DNA of 64,000 nucleotides from Zeimonas sediminis (lineage in GTDB: Bacteria > Pseudomonadota > Gammaproteobacteria > Burkholderiales > Burkholderiaceae_E): NCBI RefSeq assembly GCF_023721795.1, contig NZ_JAMQYE010000001.1:2639671-2703670 (forward strand). Direction: 5' to 3'. The notes beneath the pieces were generated by a model. The model was not told where the DNA came from. It saw nothing but the letters and a program-made list of their open reading frames with translations, and made no database searches. Position numbers and translations under genes: made by a program. Positions 1-8,535 of this stretch are shown here, in pieces; within the stretch, counting starts at the first letter, position 1; each line of letters starts with the position of its first letter.

Positions 1-1167
1 GGCGGTGTTGGCCGCCGGCACGCCGCAGTAGATCGCGCATTGCAGCAGCAACTCCTCGAGCTCCATGGTCTCGAGCTCGTTCTGCAGTCCCGCGCGCAGG
101 TGCAGGTCGAACTCCTCCCAGCGGCCCATCGCGATCGTCGCGGCCAGCACGATGATGCGGCGCGTGCGATCGTCGAACACCGGACGGGTCCAGATCTCGC
201 CCCACGCGTAGCGGGTGATCATCTTCTGGAAGCCGGCGTTCAGCGGATTGAGCGCCTTCAGCCGCGCGTCGACGTAGTCGTGGCCCAGCGCCTCGCGGCG
301 GCGCTCCAGGCCCAGCTCGAAGCGCGCGGCCTCGTCCATCGGCGCCGCGGCCGGTGGCCACTGCGGCCCCGGGCCGGGCTCGGCGAGCGGCGCGTCGCCG
401 CAGAATCGCGCGACCAGGTCCACGAAGCGCGCCGGTGCCTCGACGTGCGGAATGTGCGCGAGCGGCAGCTGGACATGGCGCGCGCCGGGCACCGCGGCCA
501 CGATCGCCTCGCCCATCGCCGGCGGCGTGGACTGGTCGTCGGGGCAGGTGACCACCAGCACCGGCGCCGCGATGCGCGGCAGCTCGGGGCGCAGGTCCAT
601 GTCGCGGATCGCCGCGCAGCAGCCGGCGTAGCCGGTCGGGTCGACCTGCAGCAGCGTGCGGCGAACCGAGTGGAAGCGCTCGTCGGCGCGCGCCACGAAA
701 TGCGGCGTGAAGAAGCGCCCGAGCGCCATGTCGGCGATCGCGGCCATGCCGCCCTCGCGGACCTTCGCGATGCGCTCGGCGAAGCCTTCGGGCGCGGTCT
801 TCGCGGAGGTGTTCGACAGCACGAAGCGCTCGAAGCGCTGCGGCGCGTTGGCAGCCAGCCACATGCCGATCATGCCGCCGATCGACACGCCGCAGTAGTG
901 CGCGCGCTCGATGCCGGCCGCGTCCATCGCGGCCAGCACGTCGCCGGCCAGCATCGCGATCGTGTAGTCGCCGGCGCTCGCCTCGGAAGCCCCGTGGCCG
1001 CGCTTGTCGATCCGCAGCACCTTGAAGCGGCGCAGCAGGCCGGGCATCACCGGCTCCCACAGCGTGAGGTCGGTGCCCAGCGAGTTCCCCAGGACCAGCG
1101 CCGGCCGGTCGGGATGGCCGTCGAGCCGCCAGTGGATGCGCGCGCCGTCGCGTTCGATGAAGGGCAT
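1..1167 (-). CDS. pcaL: Fused 3-oxoadipate enol-lactonase / 4-carboxymuconolactone decarboxylase (PcaDC), 3' end cut off
   Basis: Two consecutive steps of the protocatechuate branch of the beta-ketoadipate pathway in one cytoplasmic polypeptide. Residues 1 to about 260 are an alpha/beta-hydrolase: nucleophile elbow GVSIGG, acid-loop region CPDDQSTP and a C-terminal His in LAHIPHVEAP. Residues from about 280 are carboxymuconolactone decarboxylase (RRREALGHDYVDARL, MITRYAWGEIWTRP, IVLAATIAMGRWEEF, ending GVPAANTA). 389 codons lie in the window without a stop; decarboxylases of this family end shortly after the last motif, so only a short tail is missing. The ATG at 1167 follows GGAGA at good spacing. 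It lies 84 bases downstream of pcaB on the same strand, which fits a pca operon continuing off the left edge. The fusion is known in actinobacteria (PcaL) and some proteobacteria. Confidence 0.93.
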   Translation of the reverse strand, partial: MPFIERDGARIHWRLDGHPDRPALVLGNSLGTDLTLWEPVMPGLLRRFKVLRIDKRGHGASEASAGDYTIAMLAGDVLAAMDAAGIERAHYCGVSIGGMIGMWLAANAPQRFERFVLSNTSAKTAPEGFAERIAKVREGGMAAIADMALGRFFTPHFVARADERFHSVRRTLLQVDPTGYAGCCAAIRDMDLRPELPRIAAPVLVVTCPDDQSTPPAMGEAIVAAVPGARHVQLPLAHIPHVEAPARFVDLVARFCGDAPLAEPGPGPQWPPAAAPMDEAARFELGLERRREALGHDYVDARLKALNPLNAGFQKMITRYAWGEIWTRPVFDDRTRRIIVLAATIAMGRWEEFDLHLRAGLQNELETMELEELLLQCAIYCGVPAANTA

Positions 1168-1251: not shown

Positions 1252-2649
1252 TCAGTCGCCCGCGCGCTGCGCGCGCCAGTCGGCGAGCACCGCCTCGAGC
1301 ATCGCGGTGGCGCCGGTCAGCTGCGCGGCCGGGTCGAAGAGCGCGTCGAGCGTGCCGGGCGCCAGCGCGGCAGCCGCCTCGGGGTCGGCCTCCAGCGCTT
1401 CGCGAAGCGGCGTGCCGGTGTCGATCGCCCGGTTGCATATCCGCTCGACCAGTGCCGCCGCGGCCGGCCTGCCGAGCGCGCCGGCCAGCTCGATCGTGAC
1501 CGCTTCGGCGAACACGAAGCCGCCGGTGCGGTCGAGGTTCTCGCGCATCCGGGCCGGATCGACCCTCAGGCCGGCGGCCACTTCGATCATCGCCTCGACC
1601 GCGCTGCCGGCCGCTTCGAACAAGTCGGCCAGCACGAAGCTCGCGTTCTGCCAGCTCCCCAGCCCGCGCTCGTGCTCGGAAACCAGCTCCGCGAGCAGGG
1701 TGCCGGCCAGCGCCGGCGCGCGGAACGCGGCTTCGAGGGCCAGCATCGCGCCGACCGGGTTGCGCTTGTGCGGCATCGCCGACGAGCCGCCGCGTCCCTC
1801 GCCGGCCGGCTCGAAGGCCTCGCCGACCTCGGGCTGCATCAGCAGCGACACGTCGCGTCCGATCCGGGCGGCGGCGCCGCAGACCATCGCGAGCTCGGCG
1901 CCGATGCGCGCCACGCGATCGCGCGCGCCGTGCCAGCTCGTGGCCGGCCCGGGCAGCCCGAGCGCCTCGGCCAGCGCCCGCGCGAGCTGCGGCGCCGCGT
2001 CGCCCAGCGAGGCCAGCGTGCCGGCGGCGCCGCCGAACTGCAGCACCGCCTGCTCGTTCACGGCGCGGGCGAGAAGCGTCCTGGCGCGGGCGACCTGGTC
2101 CAGCCAGCCGGCCGCCTTCCAGCCGAAGCTGACCGGCAGCGCCGCCTGCAGCAGGGTGCGGCCGGTGATCACGGTGTCGCGATGTTCCTGCGCGAGCGCG
2201 GCCAGCGAGTCGCCCAGCTCGACCAGCATCGCGTCGAGCTCGCGCGCGGCGTCGCGGGCCAGCAGCATCGTCGCGGTCTCGATCACGTCCTGGCTGGTGG
2301 AGCCCAGGTGGACGTAGCGCGCGGCCTGCGGCGAGCTCGCCGCGACCTCGGCGGTCAGCCGCTTCACGAAGGGGATCGCCAGCGTGCTCGCGCGCCGCGC
2401 CTGGGGAGCGAGCGTGGCCGGGTCGAAGACGGACTGCAGCAACGCGGGGTCGGCCGCCAGCCGCGCGCAGGCGTGGCCGATGGCGTCGGCCGCCTCGCGC
2501 GGCACCAGCCCGCAGTCGGCCTGGGCGCGGGCCAGCGCGGCCTCGAAGCGCAGCATCGCGGCGAGCAGCGCCGCGTCGGAGAGCAGCGGCCCCAGGCGGG
2601 CGCCGGCCAGCATCGCGCGCAGGCCGGCCATCGATCTCACGGCGGTCAT
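1252..2649 (-). CDS. pcaB: 3-carboxy-cis,cis-muconate cycloisomerase
   Basis: Lactonises 3-carboxymuconate to 4-carboxymuconolactone, the substrate of the decarboxylase half of the next gene. 465 residues, normal for the fumarase/adenylosuccinate lyase superfamily. The superfamily signature GSSAMPHKRNP is present, as are the upstream active-site stretches HLGSTSQDVIET and the TGRTLLQAALP segment typical of PcaB. An open frame continues 74 codons upstream, but the extension is low-complexity and matches nothing; the ATG at 2649 (MTAVRSMAGL) starts the recognisable protein. It is divergent from the Rieske operon, with about 100 bases between them that must hold both promoters; I see no clear operator there. 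Confidence 0.93.
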   Translation of the reverse strand: MTAVRSMAGLRAMLAGARLGPLLSDAALLAAMLRFEAALARAQADCGLVPREAADAIGHACARLAADPALLQSVFDPATLAPQARRASTLAIPFVKRLTAEVAASSPQAARYVHLGSTSQDVIETATMLLARDAARELDAMLVELGDSLAALAQEHRDTVITGRTLLQAALPVSFGWKAAGWLDQVARARTLLARAVNEQAVLQFGGAAGTLASLGDAAPQLARALAEALGLPGPATSWHGARDRVARIGAELAMVCGAAARIGRDVSLLMQPEVGEAFEPAGEGRGGSSAMPHKRNPVGAMLALEAAFRAPALAGTLLAELVSEHERGLGSWQNASFVLADLFEAAGSAVEAMIEVAAGLRVDPARMRENLDRTGGFVFAEAVTIELAGALGRPAAAALVERICNRAIDTGTPLREALEADPEAAAALAPGTLDALFDPAAQLTGATAMLEAVLADWRAQRAGD

Positions 2650-2751: not shown

Positions 2752-2842
2752 CCATGGTGTCGCGCAGGCAGCCCCATGACGTCGCGGCAGGCAAGGCCAT
2801 GACGTCGCGGAGGGCCGCGCCATGATGTCGCGCGAGCAGAAC
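2752..2842 (+). repeat. Four-copy 22-23 bp tandem repeat spanning the Rieske gene start
   Basis: Four imperfect copies begin at 2752, 2774, 2797 and 2820, each opening with CCATGRYGTCGCGS (CCATGGTGTCGCGC, CCATGACGTCGCGG twice, CCATGATGTCGCGC). The period is 22, 23 and 23 bases, so the four ATG triplets (2754, 2776, 2799, 2822) fall in different frames. The last ATG is the Rieske gene start. The first has a perfect AGGAGG 7 bases upstream. Confidence 0.85.
2754..2825 (+). CDS. Possible 23-residue leader peptide overlapping the Rieske gene start
   Basis: Reads MVSRRQPHDVAAGKAMTSRR followed by AAP and a TGA at 2823-2825. Its ATG has the best ribosome-binding site in the area (AGGAGG at 2741-2746). 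Its stop overlaps the ATG of the Rieske gene at 2822 in an ATGATG context, the geometry of translational coupling. The peptide is Arg-rich with no run of a single amino acid of the kind used in classical attenuators. It is encoded entirely by the tandem repeat, so it could be an accident of repeat expansion; there is no homology support. Confidence 0.35.
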   Translation: MVSRRQPHDVAAGKAMTSRRAAP

Positions 2843-4159
2843 GACCGGATCTCGCGGGTCGGCCCCGGCACGCCGGGCGGGCGGCTGTTGCGCCACTACT
2901 GGCAGCCGGTGGCGCTGCTCGACGAGTTCGACACCGCGCGCGTCGGCCCGCGCCCGGTGAAGGCGGTCCGGGTGCTAGGCCAGGACTTCGTCCTGTTCCG
3001 CGACGAGCAGGACCGCTGGGGCCTGCTCGATCGCGACTGCCCGCACCGCGGCGCCGACCTTGCCTACGGCCGGCGCGAGGACGGCGGCCTGCGCTGTCCC
3101 TTCCACGGCTGGCTGTTCGACGTCGACGGCCGCTGTCTCGAGACGCCGGCCGAGCCCGAGGGCAGCAGGCTGTGCGACCGGATCCGCCAGCGCGCCTATC
3201 CGGTCCGGGTGATGGCGGGGGCGGTCTGGGCCTGGCTCGGCGAAGGCGAGCCGCCGGCCTTCCCGGCGCTCGACTGCTTCGTGGCGCCCGACTCGCACGT
3301 GTTCGCGTTCAAGGGGCTGTGGGACTGCAACTGGCTGCAGTCTCTCGAGGTCGGCATCGACCCGGCCCACGCCTCGTTCCTGCACCGCTTCTTCGAGGAC
3401 GAGCAGCCCGGCGAGCAGAGTTACGGCCGGCAGTTCCGCAGCGCGTCGAGCGACTCCGACCTGCCGATGACCAAGGTGATGCGCGAGCACTATCGGCCCG
3501 AGATCTTCGTGGAGCCGGCGCCGCACGGGCTGCAGCTCACCGCGCTGCGGCGGATCAGCGACACCGCGACCCACGTGCGGATCACCAACCAGGTCTTTCC
3601 GCAGGCCTTCGCGATCCCGCTGTCCGACGAGATGACGATCACCCAGTTCCACGTGCCGGTCGACGACTACAGCAACTACTGGTTCGCGTTCTTCACCAGC
3701 TTCGGGGCGCCGGTCGACAAGGCGCTGATGCGCGAGCAGCGGCTGAAGATGCACGAGCTTCCCGAGTACCGGCCGCGCGCCGGCCGCGACAACCAGTACG
3801 GCTTCGACCCGCGCGAGCAGCTGACCCAGACCTACACCGGCATGGGCGCCGACATCAACGTGCACGACCAGTGGGCCTGCGAGTCGCAGGGCCCGATCCA
3901 GGACCGCACCCGCGAGCACCTCGGCACCACCGACAAGGCGATCATGGCCTACCGGCGGATGCTGCTGAAGGCGATCGAGACGGTCGAGCAGGGCGGCATG
4001 CCGCCGGCGTGCGGCGACGCGGCGCAGGCGGAGGGCCTGCGCGGCCCGGTCACGATGGACGCGATCGGGCCCGGCGGCAGCGTCGAGGCGCTGCGCGAGT
4101 TCGGGCGGGGCATCGATTCGCGCCGCCGCGCGCGGGCCAGCTGGGGCGCTCGCCTATGA
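2822..4159 (+). CDS. Rieske non-heme iron oxygenase, phthalate 4,5-dioxygenase-like alpha subunit
   Basis: 445 residues. The N-terminal Rieske domain holds C73-x-H75 (CPHRGADL) and C92-x2-H95 (CPFHGW). The mononuclear iron site shows E176-x3-D180-x2-H183-x4-H188 (EVGIDPAHASFLHRFF), D180 being the usual electron-bridge Asp between subunits. The length and opening (RISRVGPGTPGGRLLRHYWQ) match the single-component alpha3 group that includes phthalate 4,5-dioxygenase and dicamba O-demethylase, which take electrons from a separate ferredoxin. It is followed without gap by a glutamine-synthetase-like ligase and a ferredoxin, the latter a likely redox partner; no dedicated reductase lies in the window. 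Substrate unknown. The ATG at 2822 has GGAGGG about 9 bases upstream. Confidence 0.9.
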   Translation: MMSREQNDRISRVGPGTPGGRLLRHYWQPVALLDEFDTARVGPRPVKAVRVLGQDFVLFRDEQDRWGLLDRDCPHRGADLAYGRREDGGLRCPFHGWLFDVDGRCLETPAEPEGSRLCDRIRQRAYPVRVMAGAVWAWLGEGEPPAFPALDCFVAPDSHVFAFKGLWDCNWLQSLEVGIDPAHASFLHRFFEDEQPGEQSYGRQFRSASSDSDLPMTKVMREHYRPEIFVEPAPHGLQLTALRRISDTATHVRITNQVFPQAFAIPLSDEMTITQFHVPVDDYSNYWFAFFTSFGAPVDKALMREQRLKMHELPEYRPRAGRDNQYGFDPREQLTQTYTGMGADINVHDQWACESQGPIQDRTREHLGTTDKAIMAYRRMLLKAIETVEQGGMPPACGDAAQAEGLRGPVTMDAIGPGGSVEALREFGRGIDSRRRARASWGARL

Positions 4160-5598
4160 GCTTCGTCGAACGCCACGGCCTGCGCGACCAGGCCGGGCAG
4201 GCCGCGGCGGCGCAGGTCGCCGAGCGGATCCGCGCCGAGGGGCTGGAAGTCGTGCGCGTCGTCTTCGCCGACCAGCACGGGCTGCTGCGCGGCAAGACGC
4301 TGGTGGCCGCCGAGGCGATCGGCGCGCTGCAGGCCGGCGTCGGCCTGGTCGGCACCAACCTGCTGAAGGACAGTTCCGACCGGACCGCCTGGCCGGTGTT
4401 CACGCCGGGCGCCGGCATGGGCAGTCCGGAGTTCGAGGGCGCTTCGGACGTCGTCATCGTTCCCGACCCGCTCACCTTCCGGGTGCTGCCGTGGAGCCCG
4501 CGCAGCGGCTGGATCCAGTGCGACGCCTGGTTCACCGACGGCCGGCCGGTGCCCTTCGACACGCGCCGGGTCTACCGCGACGCGCTCGCCCGGCTGGCGC
4601 AGGCCGGTTACGACTACAAGGTCGGCCTCGAGGTCGAGTTCCACGTCTACCGGATCGACGATGCGCGCATCGCGCCCGAGCGCAGCGGCTGGCCCGGCGA
4701 GCCGCCGCAGGTCAGCCTGCTCAACACCGGGTATCGCCTGCTCGCCGAGCAGCGCTACGACCAGCTCGAGCCGGTCGTCGAGCTGCTGCGCGGCCCGCTG
4801 CTGGAGCTCGGCCTGCCGCTTCGATCGATGGAAGTCGAGCTCGGCCCCAGCCAGATCGAGTTCGTGTTCGGCGCGATGACCGGCATGGACCCGGCCGACG
4901 CGATGGTGCTGTTTCGCAGCGCGACCAAGCAGGTCCTGCGCAGGCACGGCTATCACGCGACCTTCATGTGCCGGCCCAGGCTGCCGAACGTGATGTCCTC
5001 GGGCTGGCATCTTCACCAGTCGCTGGTCTCGCGCACCGACGGCGGCAACGCCTTCGCCGGGGCCGGCCGCACCCCCGACGATTGCCTGACGCCGACCGGC
5101 CGCCATTTCCTCGGCGGCCTGCTCGCCCACGCGCGCGGGGCCTCGGTGTTCGCGACCCCCACGATCAACGGCTACCGGCGCTTTCGCGCGAATTCGCTGG
5201 CGCCGGACCGCGCCACCTGGGGCTGCGACAACCGCGGCGCGATGGTCCGGGTGATCGGCGGCGGCGGCGATGCGGGCACCCGGCTCGAGAACCGGGCCGG
5301 CGAGCCGGCCGCCAATCCCTACCTGTTCATGGCCGCGCAGGTCCACGCCGGCCTCGACGGCATCGCGCGCCGGCTCGACCCCGGGCCGTCGGCCGACACG
5401 CCCTACGAGGCGAACGCGCCCCTGCTGCCGCGCAGCCTCGAGGAGGCGCTCGCCGCGCTGCGCGAGGACCGGGTCATGGTCGAGGCCTTCGGCCAGCCGG
5501 TCGTCGACTGGTACACCCGCATCAAGCGCGCCGAGATCGCACGCTTCGAGGCGGAAGTCACCGACTGGGAACACCGCGAATACTTCGAGATGTTCTGA
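4156..5598 (+). CDS. Glutamine-synthetase-like gamma-glutamyl ligase
   Basis: 480 residues with the GS catalytic fold from end to end: VGLEVEFHVY (metal-binding Glu strand), MEVELGPSQIEFVFG, FMCRPRLPNVMSSGWHLHQS (ammonia/glutamate-site His), NGYRRFRANSLAPDRATWG, RGAMVRVIGGGGD and ENRAGEPAANPYLFMAAQ, ending in the common WEHREYFEMF tail. It lacks features of housekeeping GlnA such as a C-terminal adenylylation tyrosine motif. Related proteins ligate glutamate to amines (PuuA with putrescine, IpuC with isopropylamine, TdnQ/AtdA1 with aniline). It overlaps the Rieske gene by 4 bases (ATGA) and the ferredoxin by 1 (TGATG), so the three are translationally linked. By inference it may glutamylate an amine that the oxygenase then attacks, or trap an amine product. 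Confidence 0.88.
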   Translation: MSFVERHGLRDQAGQAAAAQVAERIRAEGLEVVRVVFADQHGLLRGKTLVAAEAIGALQAGVGLVGTNLLKDSSDRTAWPVFTPGAGMGSPEFEGASDVVIVPDPLTFRVLPWSPRSGWIQCDAWFTDGRPVPFDTRRVYRDALARLAQAGYDYKVGLEVEFHVYRIDDARIAPERSGWPGEPPQVSLLNTGYRLLAEQRYDQLEPVVELLRGPLLELGLPLRSMEVELGPSQIEFVFGAMTGMDPADAMVLFRSATKQVLRRHGYHATFMCRPRLPNVMSSGWHLHQSLVSRTDGGNAFAGAGRTPDDCLTPTGRHFLGGLLAHARGASVFATPTINGYRRFRANSLAPDRATWGCDNRGAMVRVIGGGGDAGTRLENRAGEPAANPYLFMAAQVHAGLDGIARRLDPGPSADTPYEANAPLLPRSLEEALAALREDRVMVEAFGQPVVDWYTRIKRAEIARFEAEVTDWEHREYFEMF

Positions 5599-5921
5599 TG
5601 CCCGACGTTCACTTCATCGCCGACGACGGGACCGAGACCGTGCTCGACGTCTACCCCGGCAACAACCTGATGATGGCCGCGGTCTTCGACGGCATCCGCC
5701 AGATCGAGGGGATCTGCGGCGGCTGCCTGTCCTGCGCGACCTGCCACGTGTACGTCGACGAGGCCTGGCTCGGCCGCCTGCCGCCGCCGTCGTCCGACGA
5801 GCTGCGGATGCTCGACGAGGTCGCTGCCGAGCGCAGGCCGAACAGCCGTCTTTCCTGCCAGATCGAAATGCGCGAAGATCTCGCGGGGATTGTCGTCCGG
5901 ATGCCAGACCGGCAGTCCTAG
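5598..5921 (+). CDS. [2Fe-2S] ferredoxin, adrenodoxin type
   Basis: 107 residues. Cluster ligands are C40-x5-C46-x2-C49 and C87 (ICGGCLSCATCHV and RLSCQI), the spacing of adrenodoxin/putidaredoxin-type ferredoxins that serve P450s and Rieske oxygenases. C43 is an additional Cys inside the loop. Its start overlaps the stop of the preceding ligase by one base. It is most simply the electron donor for the Rieske oxygenase three genes into the same operon; a ferredoxin reductase would have to come from elsewhere in the genome. Confidence 0.92.
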   Translation: MPDVHFIADDGTETVLDVYPGNNLMMAAVFDGIRQIEGICGGCLSCATCHVYVDEAWLGRLPPPSSDELRMLDEVAAERRPNSRLSCQIEMREDLAGIVVRMPDRQS

Positions 5922-6027
5922 CCGACTAGAATCGACCGTGCCCGGCACCGAACGGGCTCGCGCGGCATCGCCGCCACGACGACCCGGGGCAGCAAGCCCG
6001 CGGGCAAACACCGAAGGAGACAGATCG

Positions 6028-7068
6028 ATGAAGCTTCGCCGCACCCTGTTCCGGACTGCCCTGGCCGCCGGACTGGCCGCCGCCGTGGCCATGCCTGCCA
6101 TGGCCCAGCAGGTCACGCTGAAGTTCCACACCTTCATGCCGCCGCAGTCGAACGTCTGGCTCGACATGCACGTGCCGTGGATGGACAAGATCGAGAAGGA
6201 GTCGGGCGGCAAGATCAAGTTCGAGCGCTATCCGGCGATGCAGCTCGGCGGCACGCCGCGCGACCTCTACGACCAGGCCAAGGACGGCGTCGTCGACATC
6301 GTCTGGACCCTGCCCGGCAACACGCCGGGCCGCTTCCCGCGCATCGAGGTGTTCGAGCTGCCCTTCATGATGACGAACGCCGAGGCCACGTCCAAGGCCT
6401 ACTGGGAGTACGTGCAGACCTACGCGAAGGACGAGTTCAAGGATGTCCAGCTGCTCGCGGTCAACGTGCACGGCCCGGGCGTGATCCACACGAAGAGCAA
6501 GCAGGTGAAGACGGTCGAAGACCTGAAGGGCCTTAAGGTCCGCGGCCCGACGCGCTTCATCACCAAGATGCTCGGCGAGCTCGGCGCGACGCCGGTCGGC
6601 ATGCCGCTGCCGCAGATCCCCGACGCGATGTCCAAGGGCGTGATCGACGGCGCGGTCATCCCCTGGGAGGTCGTGCCGGCGGTCAAGGTCAACGAGCTGG
6701 CGAAGTTCCACGCCGAGTTCGACCCGGCCGGCGGGGCGCTCTACACGACGACCTTCGTCGTGGCGATGAACAAGAAGAAGTACGACTCGCTGCCGCCCGA
6801 CCTGAAGAAGGTCATCGACGACAACTCCGGCATCGAGGCCTCGGGCTGGCTCGGCAAGGTCCAGCAGGGCAACGACCCGAAGGGCCGCAAGACCGCCGAG
6901 ACGCCGCGCAACACGATCTACACGCTGTCGCCCGAGGCCGCCAAGGCCTTCCAGACGGCCGCCGCCGACGTGGCCGACGCCTGGGTCAAGGAGATGGACA
7001 GCAAGGGCTTCAAGGGCAAGGAGCTGCTCGAAGGCGCCAAGACGCTGATCAAGAAGCACACGAAGTAA
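6028..7068 (+). CDS. TRAP transporter periplasmic substrate-binding protein (DctP family)
   Basis: 346 residues with a cleaved signal peptide (Arg/Lys start, hydrophobic Ala-rich core, MPAMAQQ cleavage region near residue 25). The mature protein starts TLKFHTFMPP and carries the DctP substrate-arginine segment (GLKVRGPTRFITKMLGELGA) and QIPDAMSKGVIDGAVIPWE. AAGGAGA lies 8 bases before the ATG. It sits 106 bases after the ferredoxin in the same direction, and a TAGAAT at 5927-5932 could be the -10 of its own promoter. No DctQ/DctM permease genes are adjacent, so it is an orphan receptor using a permease elsewhere. Its position suggests that it imports the substrate of the Rieske/ligase pathway. 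Confidence 0.92.
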   Translation: MKLRRTLFRTALAAGLAAAVAMPAMAQQVTLKFHTFMPPQSNVWLDMHVPWMDKIEKESGGKIKFERYPAMQLGGTPRDLYDQAKDGVVDIVWTLPGNTPGRFPRIEVFELPFMMTNAEATSKAYWEYVQTYAKDEFKDVQLLAVNVHGPGVIHTKSKQVKTVEDLKGLKVRGPTRFITKMLGELGATPVGMPLPQIPDAMSKGVIDGAVIPWEVVPAVKVNELAKFHAEFDPAGGALYTTTFVVAMNKKKYDSLPPDLKKVIDDNSGIEASGWLGKVQQGNDPKGRKTAETPRNTIYTLSPEAAKAFQTAAADVADAWVKEMDSKGFKGKELLEGAKTLIKKHTK

Positions 7069-7091
7069 GCCGGCTCGCCCGGCCCGGTTCG

Positions 7092-7117
7092 CGGGGCGCC
7101 CTGGGGCGCCCCGTTTT
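7092..7117 (+). terminator. Rho-independent terminator after the TRAP receptor
   Basis: Perfect 9-bp stem CGGGGCGCC / GGCGCCCCG (7092-7100 with 7105-7113), loop CTGG, followed by TTTT. It begins 24 bases after the stop codon of the TRAP receptor gene and closes the Rieske-ligase-ferredoxin-TRAP unit. Confidence 0.88.
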
Positions 7118-7206: not shown

Positions 7207-8535
7207 GTGAAAGTCCTGATCGTCGGAGGCGGCATCGGCGGCCTCACCCTTGCGCTGATGCTGCACGCCCGCGGCATCCGGCCGCGCATCGTCGAGGCGG
7301 CCGTCGAGGTCAAGCCGCTCGGCGTCGGCATCAACGTGCAGCCGAGCGCAGTGGCCGAGCTCGCGATGCTCGACCTGCTCGATCGGCTCGACGCGACCGG
7401 CGTGCGCACCGCCGAGGTCGGCTACTACAACAAGTTCGGCCAGCACATCTGGACCGAGCCGCGCGGCGTGGACGCCGGCTACGCGGTGCCGCAGTTCTCG
7501 ATCCACCGCGGCCGGCTGCAGATGCTGCTGTTCGATGCGGTGCGCGAGCGGCTCGGCGAAGCCGCCGTCGCGGCCGGCGTCGAGGCGGTCTCGGTCGAGC
7601 CCGATGCGGGCAGGGTGGTGCTGCGCGACCGGCGCGACGGCGGCACGCGCATCGAGCAGGCCGATGCGATCGTCGCGGCCGACGGCATCCACTCGGCGGT
7701 GCGCCGCCAGTTCTATCCCGACGAGGGCCTGCCCCGGTACTCGGGACGCATCCTCTGGCGCGCCACCAGCTACGACAGGCCCTGGCTGACCGGTCGCACG
7801 ATGGTCATGGTCGGCCACGCCGACCAGAAGCTGGTCGCCTATCCGATCACGATGCCCGACGCCGAGGGCCGCTCGCTGCTGAACTGGATCGCCGAGCTGC
7901 GTGTGCCCGGCGACACGCCGCCCAAGGACGACTGGAATCGCGAGGTGCCCAAGAGCGTGTTCGCGCCGGCCTTCGCCGAGTGGAAGTTTCCCTGGCTCGA
8001 CGTGCCGAAGCTCTTCGACGGCGCGGAGCGGGTGTTCGAGTTCCCGATGGTCGACCGCGACCCGCTGCCCCGCTGGAGCTTCGGGCGCGTCACGCTGCTC
8101 GGCGACGCCGCGCACCCGATGTACCCGATCGGCTCGAACGGCGCCTCGCAGGCGATCCTCGATGCGCGGGTGCTGGCCGACGAGCTCGAGAAGGCGGCCG
8201 CCGACCTGGCGGCCGGCGCTGCGGGCGGGGCGGCGGCCGGCGAGGCGCAAGGGCAGGCGCCGGCGGCACCGATCGAGCGGGCGCTGAAGGCCTACGAGGC
8301 CGACCGCCTGCCGAAGACCGCCCGGATCGTTCTGGCCAACCGGGGCCATGGGCCCGACCACGTGATGCAGATCGTCGAGGAGCGGGCGCCGAACGGCTTT
8401 CGCCACGTGCACGACGTCGCCTCGCACGATGAGCTGGTCGCGATCGCCGCGCAGTACAAGGCGATCGTCGGCCTCGAGATCGAGACGGTCAACGCCAGGA
8501 TGAAGGCCTGGCAGCAGGCGCGCGAGCGCGGCTGA
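7207..8535 (+). CDS. FAD-dependent monooxygenase, aromatic hydroxylase family
   Basis: 442 residues of the UbiH/salicylate-hydroxylase superfamily. The N-terminal dinucleotide fold is VLIVGGGIGGLTLALML (GxGxxG at residues 7-12), the middle has the DGIHSAVR motif, and the second FAD motif is TLLGDAAHPMYPIGSNGASQ. The start is GTG at 7207; the FAD fold begins 2 residues later, so little choice exists. An Ala/Gly-rich insert (AAGAAGGAAAGEAQGQAP) near residue 340 sits in a surface segment just before the final helices and looks like a lineage-specific expansion. It follows the Rieske operon in the same direction but behind a terminator. Likely role: NAD(P)H-dependent hydroxylation of an aromatic ring or related compound; substrate not predictable. 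Confidence 0.88.
   Translation: MKVLIVGGGIGGLTLALMLHARGIRPRIVEAAVEVKPLGVGINVQPSAVAELAMLDLLDRLDATGVRTAEVGYYNKFGQHIWTEPRGVDAGYAVPQFSIHRGRLQMLLFDAVRERLGEAAVAAGVEAVSVEPDAGRVVLRDRRDGGTRIEQADAIVAADGIHSAVRRQFYPDEGLPRYSGRILWRATSYDRPWLTGRTMVMVGHADQKLVAYPITMPDAEGRSLLNWIAELRVPGDTPPKDDWNREVPKSVFAPAFAEWKFPWLDVPKLFDGAERVFEFPMVDRDPLPRWSFGRVTLLGDAAHPMYPIGSNGASQAILDARVLADELEKAAADLAAGAAGGAAAGEAQGQAPAAPIERALKAYEADRLPKTARIVLANRGHGPDHVMQIVEERAPNGFRHVHDVASHDELVAIAAQYKAIVGLEIETVNARMKAWQQARERG

Follow-up and report, generated by a model that had tools for sequence, protein, structure and literature searches.

The sad operon of Hydrogenophaga intermedia PBC, which encodes a 4-aminobenzenesulfonate 3,4-dioxygenase, combines a Rieske oxygenase, a glutamine-synthetase-like (GS-like) protein and a ferredoxin (PMC5632844). 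The order of glutamylation followed by dioxygenation comes from aniline work that is summarised in PMC4539516. The amine site of the 1-naphthylamine glutamyl ligase NpaA1 lies between two subunits, and the F75A mutant of this enzyme lost its activity toward aniline almost completely (PMC11335346). In phthalate/isophthalate dioxygenases, the carboxylate is bound by R244/R234 (PMC12445078). Here, a related operon of Zeimonas sediminis is described, located at 2822-7068 of a 64,000-nucleotide stretch (NZ_JAMQYE010000001.1, positions 2,639,671 to 2,703,670; the window). It contains genes for a Rieske oxygenase, a GS-like ligase, a ferredoxin and the receptor of a tripartite ATP-independent periplasmic (TRAP) transporter. 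With a probability of roughly 0.55, it belongs to the sad type and acts on an acidic aromatic amine; 4-aminobenzoate, the likeliest candidate, would be converted to protocatechuate. The features of the operon are as follows.

2822-4159, plus strand: Rieske oxygenase, SadA-like, of the single-subunit phthalate/LigXa type; 445 amino acids; PF00355 1.8e-17, PF19301 (LigXa_C) 1.2e-24
4156-5598, plus strand: GS-like ligase, predicted to be of the SadB/TdnQ-like glutamate--aromatic-amine type; 480 amino acids; PF00120 1.6e-78
5598-5921, plus strand: [2Fe-2S] adrenodoxin-like ferredoxin; 107 amino acids; PF00111 5.9e-7
6028-7068, plus strand: TRAP receptor DctP; 346 amino acids; PF03480 1.7e-45
7091-7114, plus strand: candidate intrinsic terminator; 10-pair stem, loop of 4, U run

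The oxygenase, ligase and ferredoxin genes lie side by side, as in the sad operon. The first two share ATGA (4156-4159), the second and third share TGATG (5596-5600), and 106 bases separate the ferredoxin gene from dctP. An earlier note on this DNA, made from its letters alone, had described three overlapping genes followed by a periplasmic receptor, and a single-subunit phthalate-type oxygenase with its own adrenodoxin-like ferredoxin. Both descriptions agree with the four genes, the two overlaps and the domain matches listed above. The terminator that it placed after the receptor stood only in part. A G+C-rich hairpin that ends in four U, with the first of them drawn paired, is present; its z is only -1.0 against shuffles, and it was not among the matches of a consensus terminator scan. 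A terminator after dctP is plausible. The promoter scan listed no sigma-70-type promoter.

The pairing of the oxygenase and the ligase was followed in a scan with an oxygenase alignment, which gave at least 594 stretches, at least 588 of them relatives. Eighty loci were kept, picked by the oxygenase alone, and their gene content was counted by tblastn (at least 40% of the query and at least 35% identity; several loci end at contig ends). In 79 of the 80, the ligase gene is the next after the oxygenase gene, on the same strand and 6-346 bases on; the sequence of the single exception (L024) stops about 300 bases beyond the oxygenase. A chance neighbourhood of the two genes was rejected on the strength of this same-strand pairing. 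The oxygenase and ligase matches of L015 are 6 bases apart, so overlap of the genes is not general. A ferredoxin of the query type was found in 37 loci, a reductase in 21 and an amidotransferase in 10. The closest relative with a name, among the matches listed, is Zeimonas arvi (90% identical by the oxygenase). Within the family of the host, the oxygenase is present in 17 of 74 genomes and is adjoined by the ligase in 16 of these; the 80 loci and the family genomes overlap, because the coordinates of L015 coincide with those of the G057 match (by which G057 is taken to be Zeimonas arvi). The exceptional genome, G004, has a partial oxygenase. Its relative (L127, G004:C1:774500-794400) matches residues 1-317 only and is possibly truncated or decaying, with no ligase match in 19.9 kb.

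The neighbours of 87 loci were also clustered with a crude gene finder, which detected the ligase in only 62 of them; for this reason, gene content was taken from the tblastn counts only. The clustered neighbours include ATP-binding cassette (ABC) receptors, GntR- and IclR-like regulators, amidases and hydrolases, and no lower pathway shared by these loci was found. In Reyranella-type loci (L018, L020, L027, L048 and others), the flanks contain neither a ferredoxin nor a reductase of the query types, and an alpha/beta hydrolase gene and a glutathione S-transferase gene recur nearby.

The ligase is far from the housekeeping enzymes of its superfamily. It scored 222, 229, 233 and 107 bits against four NCBIfam GS/PuuA models with cut-offs of 429, 470, 650 and 845, respectively, and reached none of them. 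The host genome (3.86 Mb, 99% complete) holds two GS-family genes, namely that of the ligase and glnA, whose product is 68% identical to E. coli GlnA. In a tree of 40 rows, a branch with 99/99 support holds 34 of them: 30 sad-like ligases, three ligases of aniline-type clusters and that of Rhodococcus CS98. GlnA, GlnT, PuuA and two other GS-like rows fall outside, several on long branches, and support is only 82/90 for the sub-branch made up of just the 30 sad-like rows. The ligase thus groups with aromatic-amine ligases, and it has the tunnel loop, at which GlnA shows a gap in the alignment. These features suggest that it belongs with the aromatic-amine ligases of the glutamyl-organic-amine synthetase (GoaS) type, and activity on an amine over ammonia is predicted. 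The best solved chain is 8wwu (1.3e-122), which, judged from its tunnel-loop residues, is NpaA1 (offset of 15 to PMC11335346, counted by hand).

The tunnel loop carries a residue that may bear on the substrate. K71 of the ligase aligns with tunnel residue F75 of NpaA1. Lysine is found here in all 101 sad-like ligase rows, which still include repeats (L023 and L117 at the least, which look like one contig) and were chosen through the oxygenase, except for the window, five plasmid references, Novosphingobium RL4 and L006. Phenylalanine occupies the position in the three aniline-type rows, Rhodococcus CS98 and NpaA1. At least 97% constancy within the sad-like rows was seen at 104 positions, 11 of which differ from the aniline-type rows, and K71 is the sole one of the 11 at which a residue that is neutral in the aniline-type rows is replaced by Lys, Arg, Asp or Glu. 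K71, T67, T77 (M81 of NpaA1) and V81 are part of the tunnel loop or adjoin it. A GS-like ligase on a Rhodococcus plasmid (L142, 5944-7479; 43% identical) has the tunnel Phe and is accompanied by an amidase, an AmiS/UreI transporter and an amidotransferase, with no oxygenase annotated in that stretch.

The oxygenase offers a second such residue. It is nearest to single-subunit enzymes of the phthalate/isophthalate type and is 62-67% identical to five plasmid homologues, each of which adjoins a GS-like gene. Its nearest solved chains are 7fjl (2.5e-64), which we take to be the phthalate dioxygenase of Comamonas testosteroni KF1, and 9ina (1.1e-61). In 7fjl, R207 and R244 stand at the residue numbers given in PMC12445078, and R253 of the oxygenase aligns with the carboxylate-binding R244/R234. 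C73/H75/C92/H95, E176, D180, H183, H188 and R253 are invariant in 101 of 101 distinct rows, and D349 is present in 100 (one gap); by this alignment, both the Cys/His pattern of the Rieske centre and the residues presumed to bind iron are preserved. Taken together, K71 and R253 would both fit an acidic aromatic amine.

The ferredoxin has cysteines at 40/46/49/87 (CX5CX2CX37C) and is 47-49% identical to ferredoxins near four homologous plasmid clusters. According to Gan and co-workers (2012), the GS-like protein of the sad system is reportedly needed, and the ferredoxin is said to help. As for an FAD ferredoxin reductase of the type found near homologues, it may not define sad-type systems, because none was seen in the flanks of 59 of the 80 loci.

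The neighbourhood of the operon may point to the product of the reaction. Three further genes were identified there.

1252-2649, minus strand: pcaB, 3-carboxy-cis,cis-muconate cycloisomerase; TIGR02426 357.9 bits, cut-off 355.75
1-1167, minus strand, running about 50 bases past the left edge (L010:14621-15838): pcaDC fusion, 3-oxoadipate enol-lactonase/4-carboxymuconolactone decarboxylase; NF051488 (bifunc_PcaDC) 454, cut-off 390
7207-8535, plus strand, downstream of dctP: PhzS-like flavin adenine dinucleotide (FAD) monooxygenase; PRK07538 568.6, cut-off 400

On the minus strand and leftwards, pcaB, the pcaDC fusion, a small dctQ-like gene and dctM form an operon that is divergent from the oxygenase operon; the earlier note had overlooked these genes. 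The pcaB product gave 491 bits with PRK09053, under the cut-off of 595; the genome has no other clear pcaB, and its two further matches are 30-32% identical. The PcaDC fusion passed TIGR02427 for PcaD (296, cut-off 256), and the PcaC model TIGR02425 alone gave 130, under 156. A cluster of pobA, pcaG and pcaH is located about 1.6 Mb from the operon. Elsewhere in the genome (L138, G000:C1:2855000-2874900), an intradiol dioxygenase gene (PF00775) lies beside what are, by eye only, maleylacetate reductase and thiolase genes. DctM is supported by PF06808 and TIGR00786. DctQ is assigned by its position and its conservation in relatives; it matched no NCBIfam model, and a Pfam scan was not made. A full TRAP set is present by these assignments, with DctP encoded in one operon and DctQM in the divergent one. 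The nearest solved chain of DctP is 5im2 (6e-158); a literature search on the nearest TRAP structures found no paper with those entry codes. The link of the transporter to the system, which the earlier note had drawn from the receptor, became stronger, because dctQM belong to the divergent operon in this genome and lie close to the module in relatives.

This arrangement recurs among relatives. In the 17 oxygenase-positive family genomes (the host included; several contigs are short), a divergent pcaB adjoins the module in eight, which belong to two genera (the own genome, G063, G073, G064, G045, G051, G047 and G046), and near the module PcaDC was found in eight, DctP in eight and DctQM in nine. 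In a third genus (L123), about 5 kb separate PcaDC from the oxygenase. Stop codons were flagged inside some pcaB matches and proved to be gene ends in the four cases checked. A gene for protocatechuate ring cleavage (PcaH or LigA) is present in 15 of the 17 oxygenase-positive genomes versus 31 of the 57 others (one-sided Fisher p 0.0097), and among the 17, PcaH goes with pcaB adjacency (6/8 vs 1/9, p 0.013). The PhzS-like gene is near the module in seven of the 17. The nearest solved chains of its product, 2rgj/3c96 (1.4e-89), are presumably PhzS, and members of two genera carry the gene next to pcaDC or the sad-type module.

From these data, the following pathway can be proposed. The TRAP transporter would import the amine, and the ligase would join it to glutamate with ATP to form a gamma-glutamyl amide; Lys71, which lies at the amine tunnel, may hold the acid group. 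A general, borrowed reductase and the ferredoxin would feed electrons to the Rieske oxygenase, which would dioxygenate the amine-bearing carbon and its neighbour (3,4-dioxygenation). The resulting diol may then shed the glutamyl amide as glutamine, leaving protocatechuate, which PcaGH (encoded elsewhere in the genome), PcaB and PcaDC would take to 3-oxoadipate. PcaB and PcaDC act after the ring opening of protocatechuate. For this reason, protocatechuate is the expected product, and 4- or 3-aminobenzoate the expected source. The sequence-based part of this scheme consists of the gene content, the ligase clade, the conservation, the invariant residues, and the proximity of PcaDC and of the genome's one clear pcaB. 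From these, we tentatively narrow the substrate to an acidic aromatic amine and, most likely, an aminobenzoate that yields protocatechuate. A literature search, mostly without subscription journals and limited to the text available, found no published ligase-dioxygenase for 4-aminobenzoate.

A number of observations weigh against this assignment. K71 may be a mark of ancestry only, because four of the 11 clade-marking positions fall in its loop. No ferredoxin reductase with PF14759 (Reductase_C) was found in the whole genome (other reductase families were not searched, and the same search matched 3 of 14 control genomes). Among the 80 loci, pcaB with PcaDC occurs in one and the DctP/DctQ/DctM set in two, and these loci (G045, G057) look to be members of the host's own family; outside it, ABC-type receptors are common neighbours of the module. 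In G057 and G058, the module and the TRAP genes occur without PcaB or PcaH (G057 has LigA), G063 and G073 (65% complete) have pcaB beside the module and LigA, with no PcaH found, and G043 lacks both PcaH and LigA. The ring-cleavage statistics are also sensitive to how they are taken. PcaH alone gives p 0.09 and LigA alone p 0.07, the Fisher test ignores relatedness, and within the own genus the contrast vanishes (5/6 vs 10/12, counted by hand).

Some observations would suit another aromatic amine, such as an aminophenol, an aminocinnamate or a larger amino-aromatic acid, in which case the pcaB link would reflect a general grouping of aromatic genes. The module without pcaB and pcaH in Zeimonas arvi, the recurrent PhzS-like hydroxylase and the ABC receptors elsewhere can be read in this way. 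However, two genera share the divergent pcaB, and in a third PcaDC is close to the oxygenase, so we consider such a substrate unlikely. 3-Aminobenzoate would also give protocatechuate by 3,4-dioxygenation, which weighs against a firm choice of 4-aminobenzoate; the downstream pathway would be identical, and K71 and R253 would suit any ring carboxylate. Nevertheless, the named sad activity is on a para-substituted amine, and the 3-aminobenzoate cluster (mab) of Comamonas QT12 is proposed to proceed via cis-ACOHDA and fumarylpyruvate, which makes 3-aminobenzoate rather improbable.

A plain sulfanilate (4-aminobenzenesulfonate) system as in PBC, with 4-sulfocatechol as the product, would have the same gene set, and a pair 57-62% identical is found in Novosphingobium resinovorum SA1, a well-studied degrader according to PMC5632844. 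In that source, the sulfocatechol route comprises pcaH2G2, pcaB2, a 4-sulfomuconolactone hydrolase and a maleylacetate reductase. The neighbours here are PcaB and PcaDC, and a decarboxylase-lactonase fusion has no place in such a route; the same paper suggests that the original substrate was a natural analogue. We regard sulfanilate as a quite improbable substrate. A sulfocatechol lower pathway was rejected as well, with no sign of it in the neighbourhood of the operon. Finally, a polyamine-glutamylating or housekeeping ligase with unrelated neighbours, which shares the superfamily and for which the PuuA-type model NF045547 gives 233 bits, is highly improbable given scores far under all four GS/PuuA cut-offs, a place in the tree apart from PuuA, GlnA and GlnT, and the pairing in 79 of 80 loci.

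The preferred assignment to 4-aminobenzoate can be extended to the whole group, at odds that we would put a little short of even. The sad-type ligase-oxygenase pair may at root serve aminobenzoic acids such as 4-aminobenzoate, a folate building block, with sulfanilate as a side activity, and the change from Phe to Lys in the tunnel may split ligases for neutral anilines from those for acidic amines. The linkage found here names a concrete candidate reaction, from aminobenzoate to protocatechuate, along with a residue, Lys71. If true, this would give a function to a widespread gene pair, with an oxygenase relative at 588 or more loci and the ligase adjoining in 79 of the 80 examined.

Three clusters (L009, L141, L143), which from their gene content we take to be aniline/chloroaniline systems (TdnQTA1A2B, AtdA, DcaQ), likewise have a GS-like ligase (48% identical in L009) clustered with a Rieske oxygenase. 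They differ in a two-subunit oxygenase, whose alpha subunit matches at 25% over 153 amino acids, in an amidotransferase, in a ferredoxin-NADP-reductase-type component and in the tunnel Phe. No small oxygenase subunit is present in the operon, and the best match to a TdnT-like amidotransferase in the whole genome is 31% identical at 4e-8 (two other amidotransferase types found near homologues were not searched there). Membership in the aniline systems was rejected for these reasons and for the Phe-to-Lys change, and the earlier note was right that the second subunit and the amidotransferase are absent. The co-occurrence search and the GS-family tree that it had proposed gave a conserved oxygenase-ligase pair and a ligase apart from GlnA, GlnT and PuuA. 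Because the ligase lies on the 99/99 aniline-type branch and the gene set is conserved, neither of the outcomes that it named as adverse (a housekeeping or polyamine grouping, or a set not conserved) was seen. Its proposal of a gamma-glutamyl route for an amine is supported by the ligase clade and the conserved set; its suggestion that the route could be distinct, reached by comparison with the aniline system only, is not supported, since the sad operon has the same set (PMC5632844).

NpaA1 is the best solved relative of the ligase, and its N-terminal tunnel loop aligns; F75, M81, W235 and V201 correspond to K71, T77, L229 and L195 by a hand count. The KF1 phthalate/isophthalate dioxygenases are single-subunit enzymes of the same family as the oxygenase, with the carboxylate Arg aligned with R253; other pocket residues differ, and the available part of PMC12445078 describes no ligase step. 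On pSA3 of SA1 (L007, L095), the oxygenase is 62%, the ligase 57% and the ferredoxin 47% identical to those here; unlike here, a ferredoxin and a reductase lie about 5 kb from the pair, and a maleylacetate reductase gene is near. This pair may be the working sad operon of SA1, which is not confirmed, because the 48 kb around it (L095) gave no PcaB, PcaG, PcaH or PcaDC match. A folP (dihydropteroate synthase) gene at L095 19768-20598, about 8 kb from the pair, might protect folate synthesis from sulfanilate-like compounds. The sad operon of PBC, likened here by gene content with the SA1 homologues standing in, has the same three-gene make-up, and thus the gene set is not new in kind. In contrast to that operon, the one described here includes a TRAP receptor, has no adjacent reductase and faces a divergent pcaB-pcaDC-dctQM neighbour. 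What is new is the setting, in which the sole clear pcaB, pcaDC and the TRAP permease genes stand back to back with a sad-type operon.

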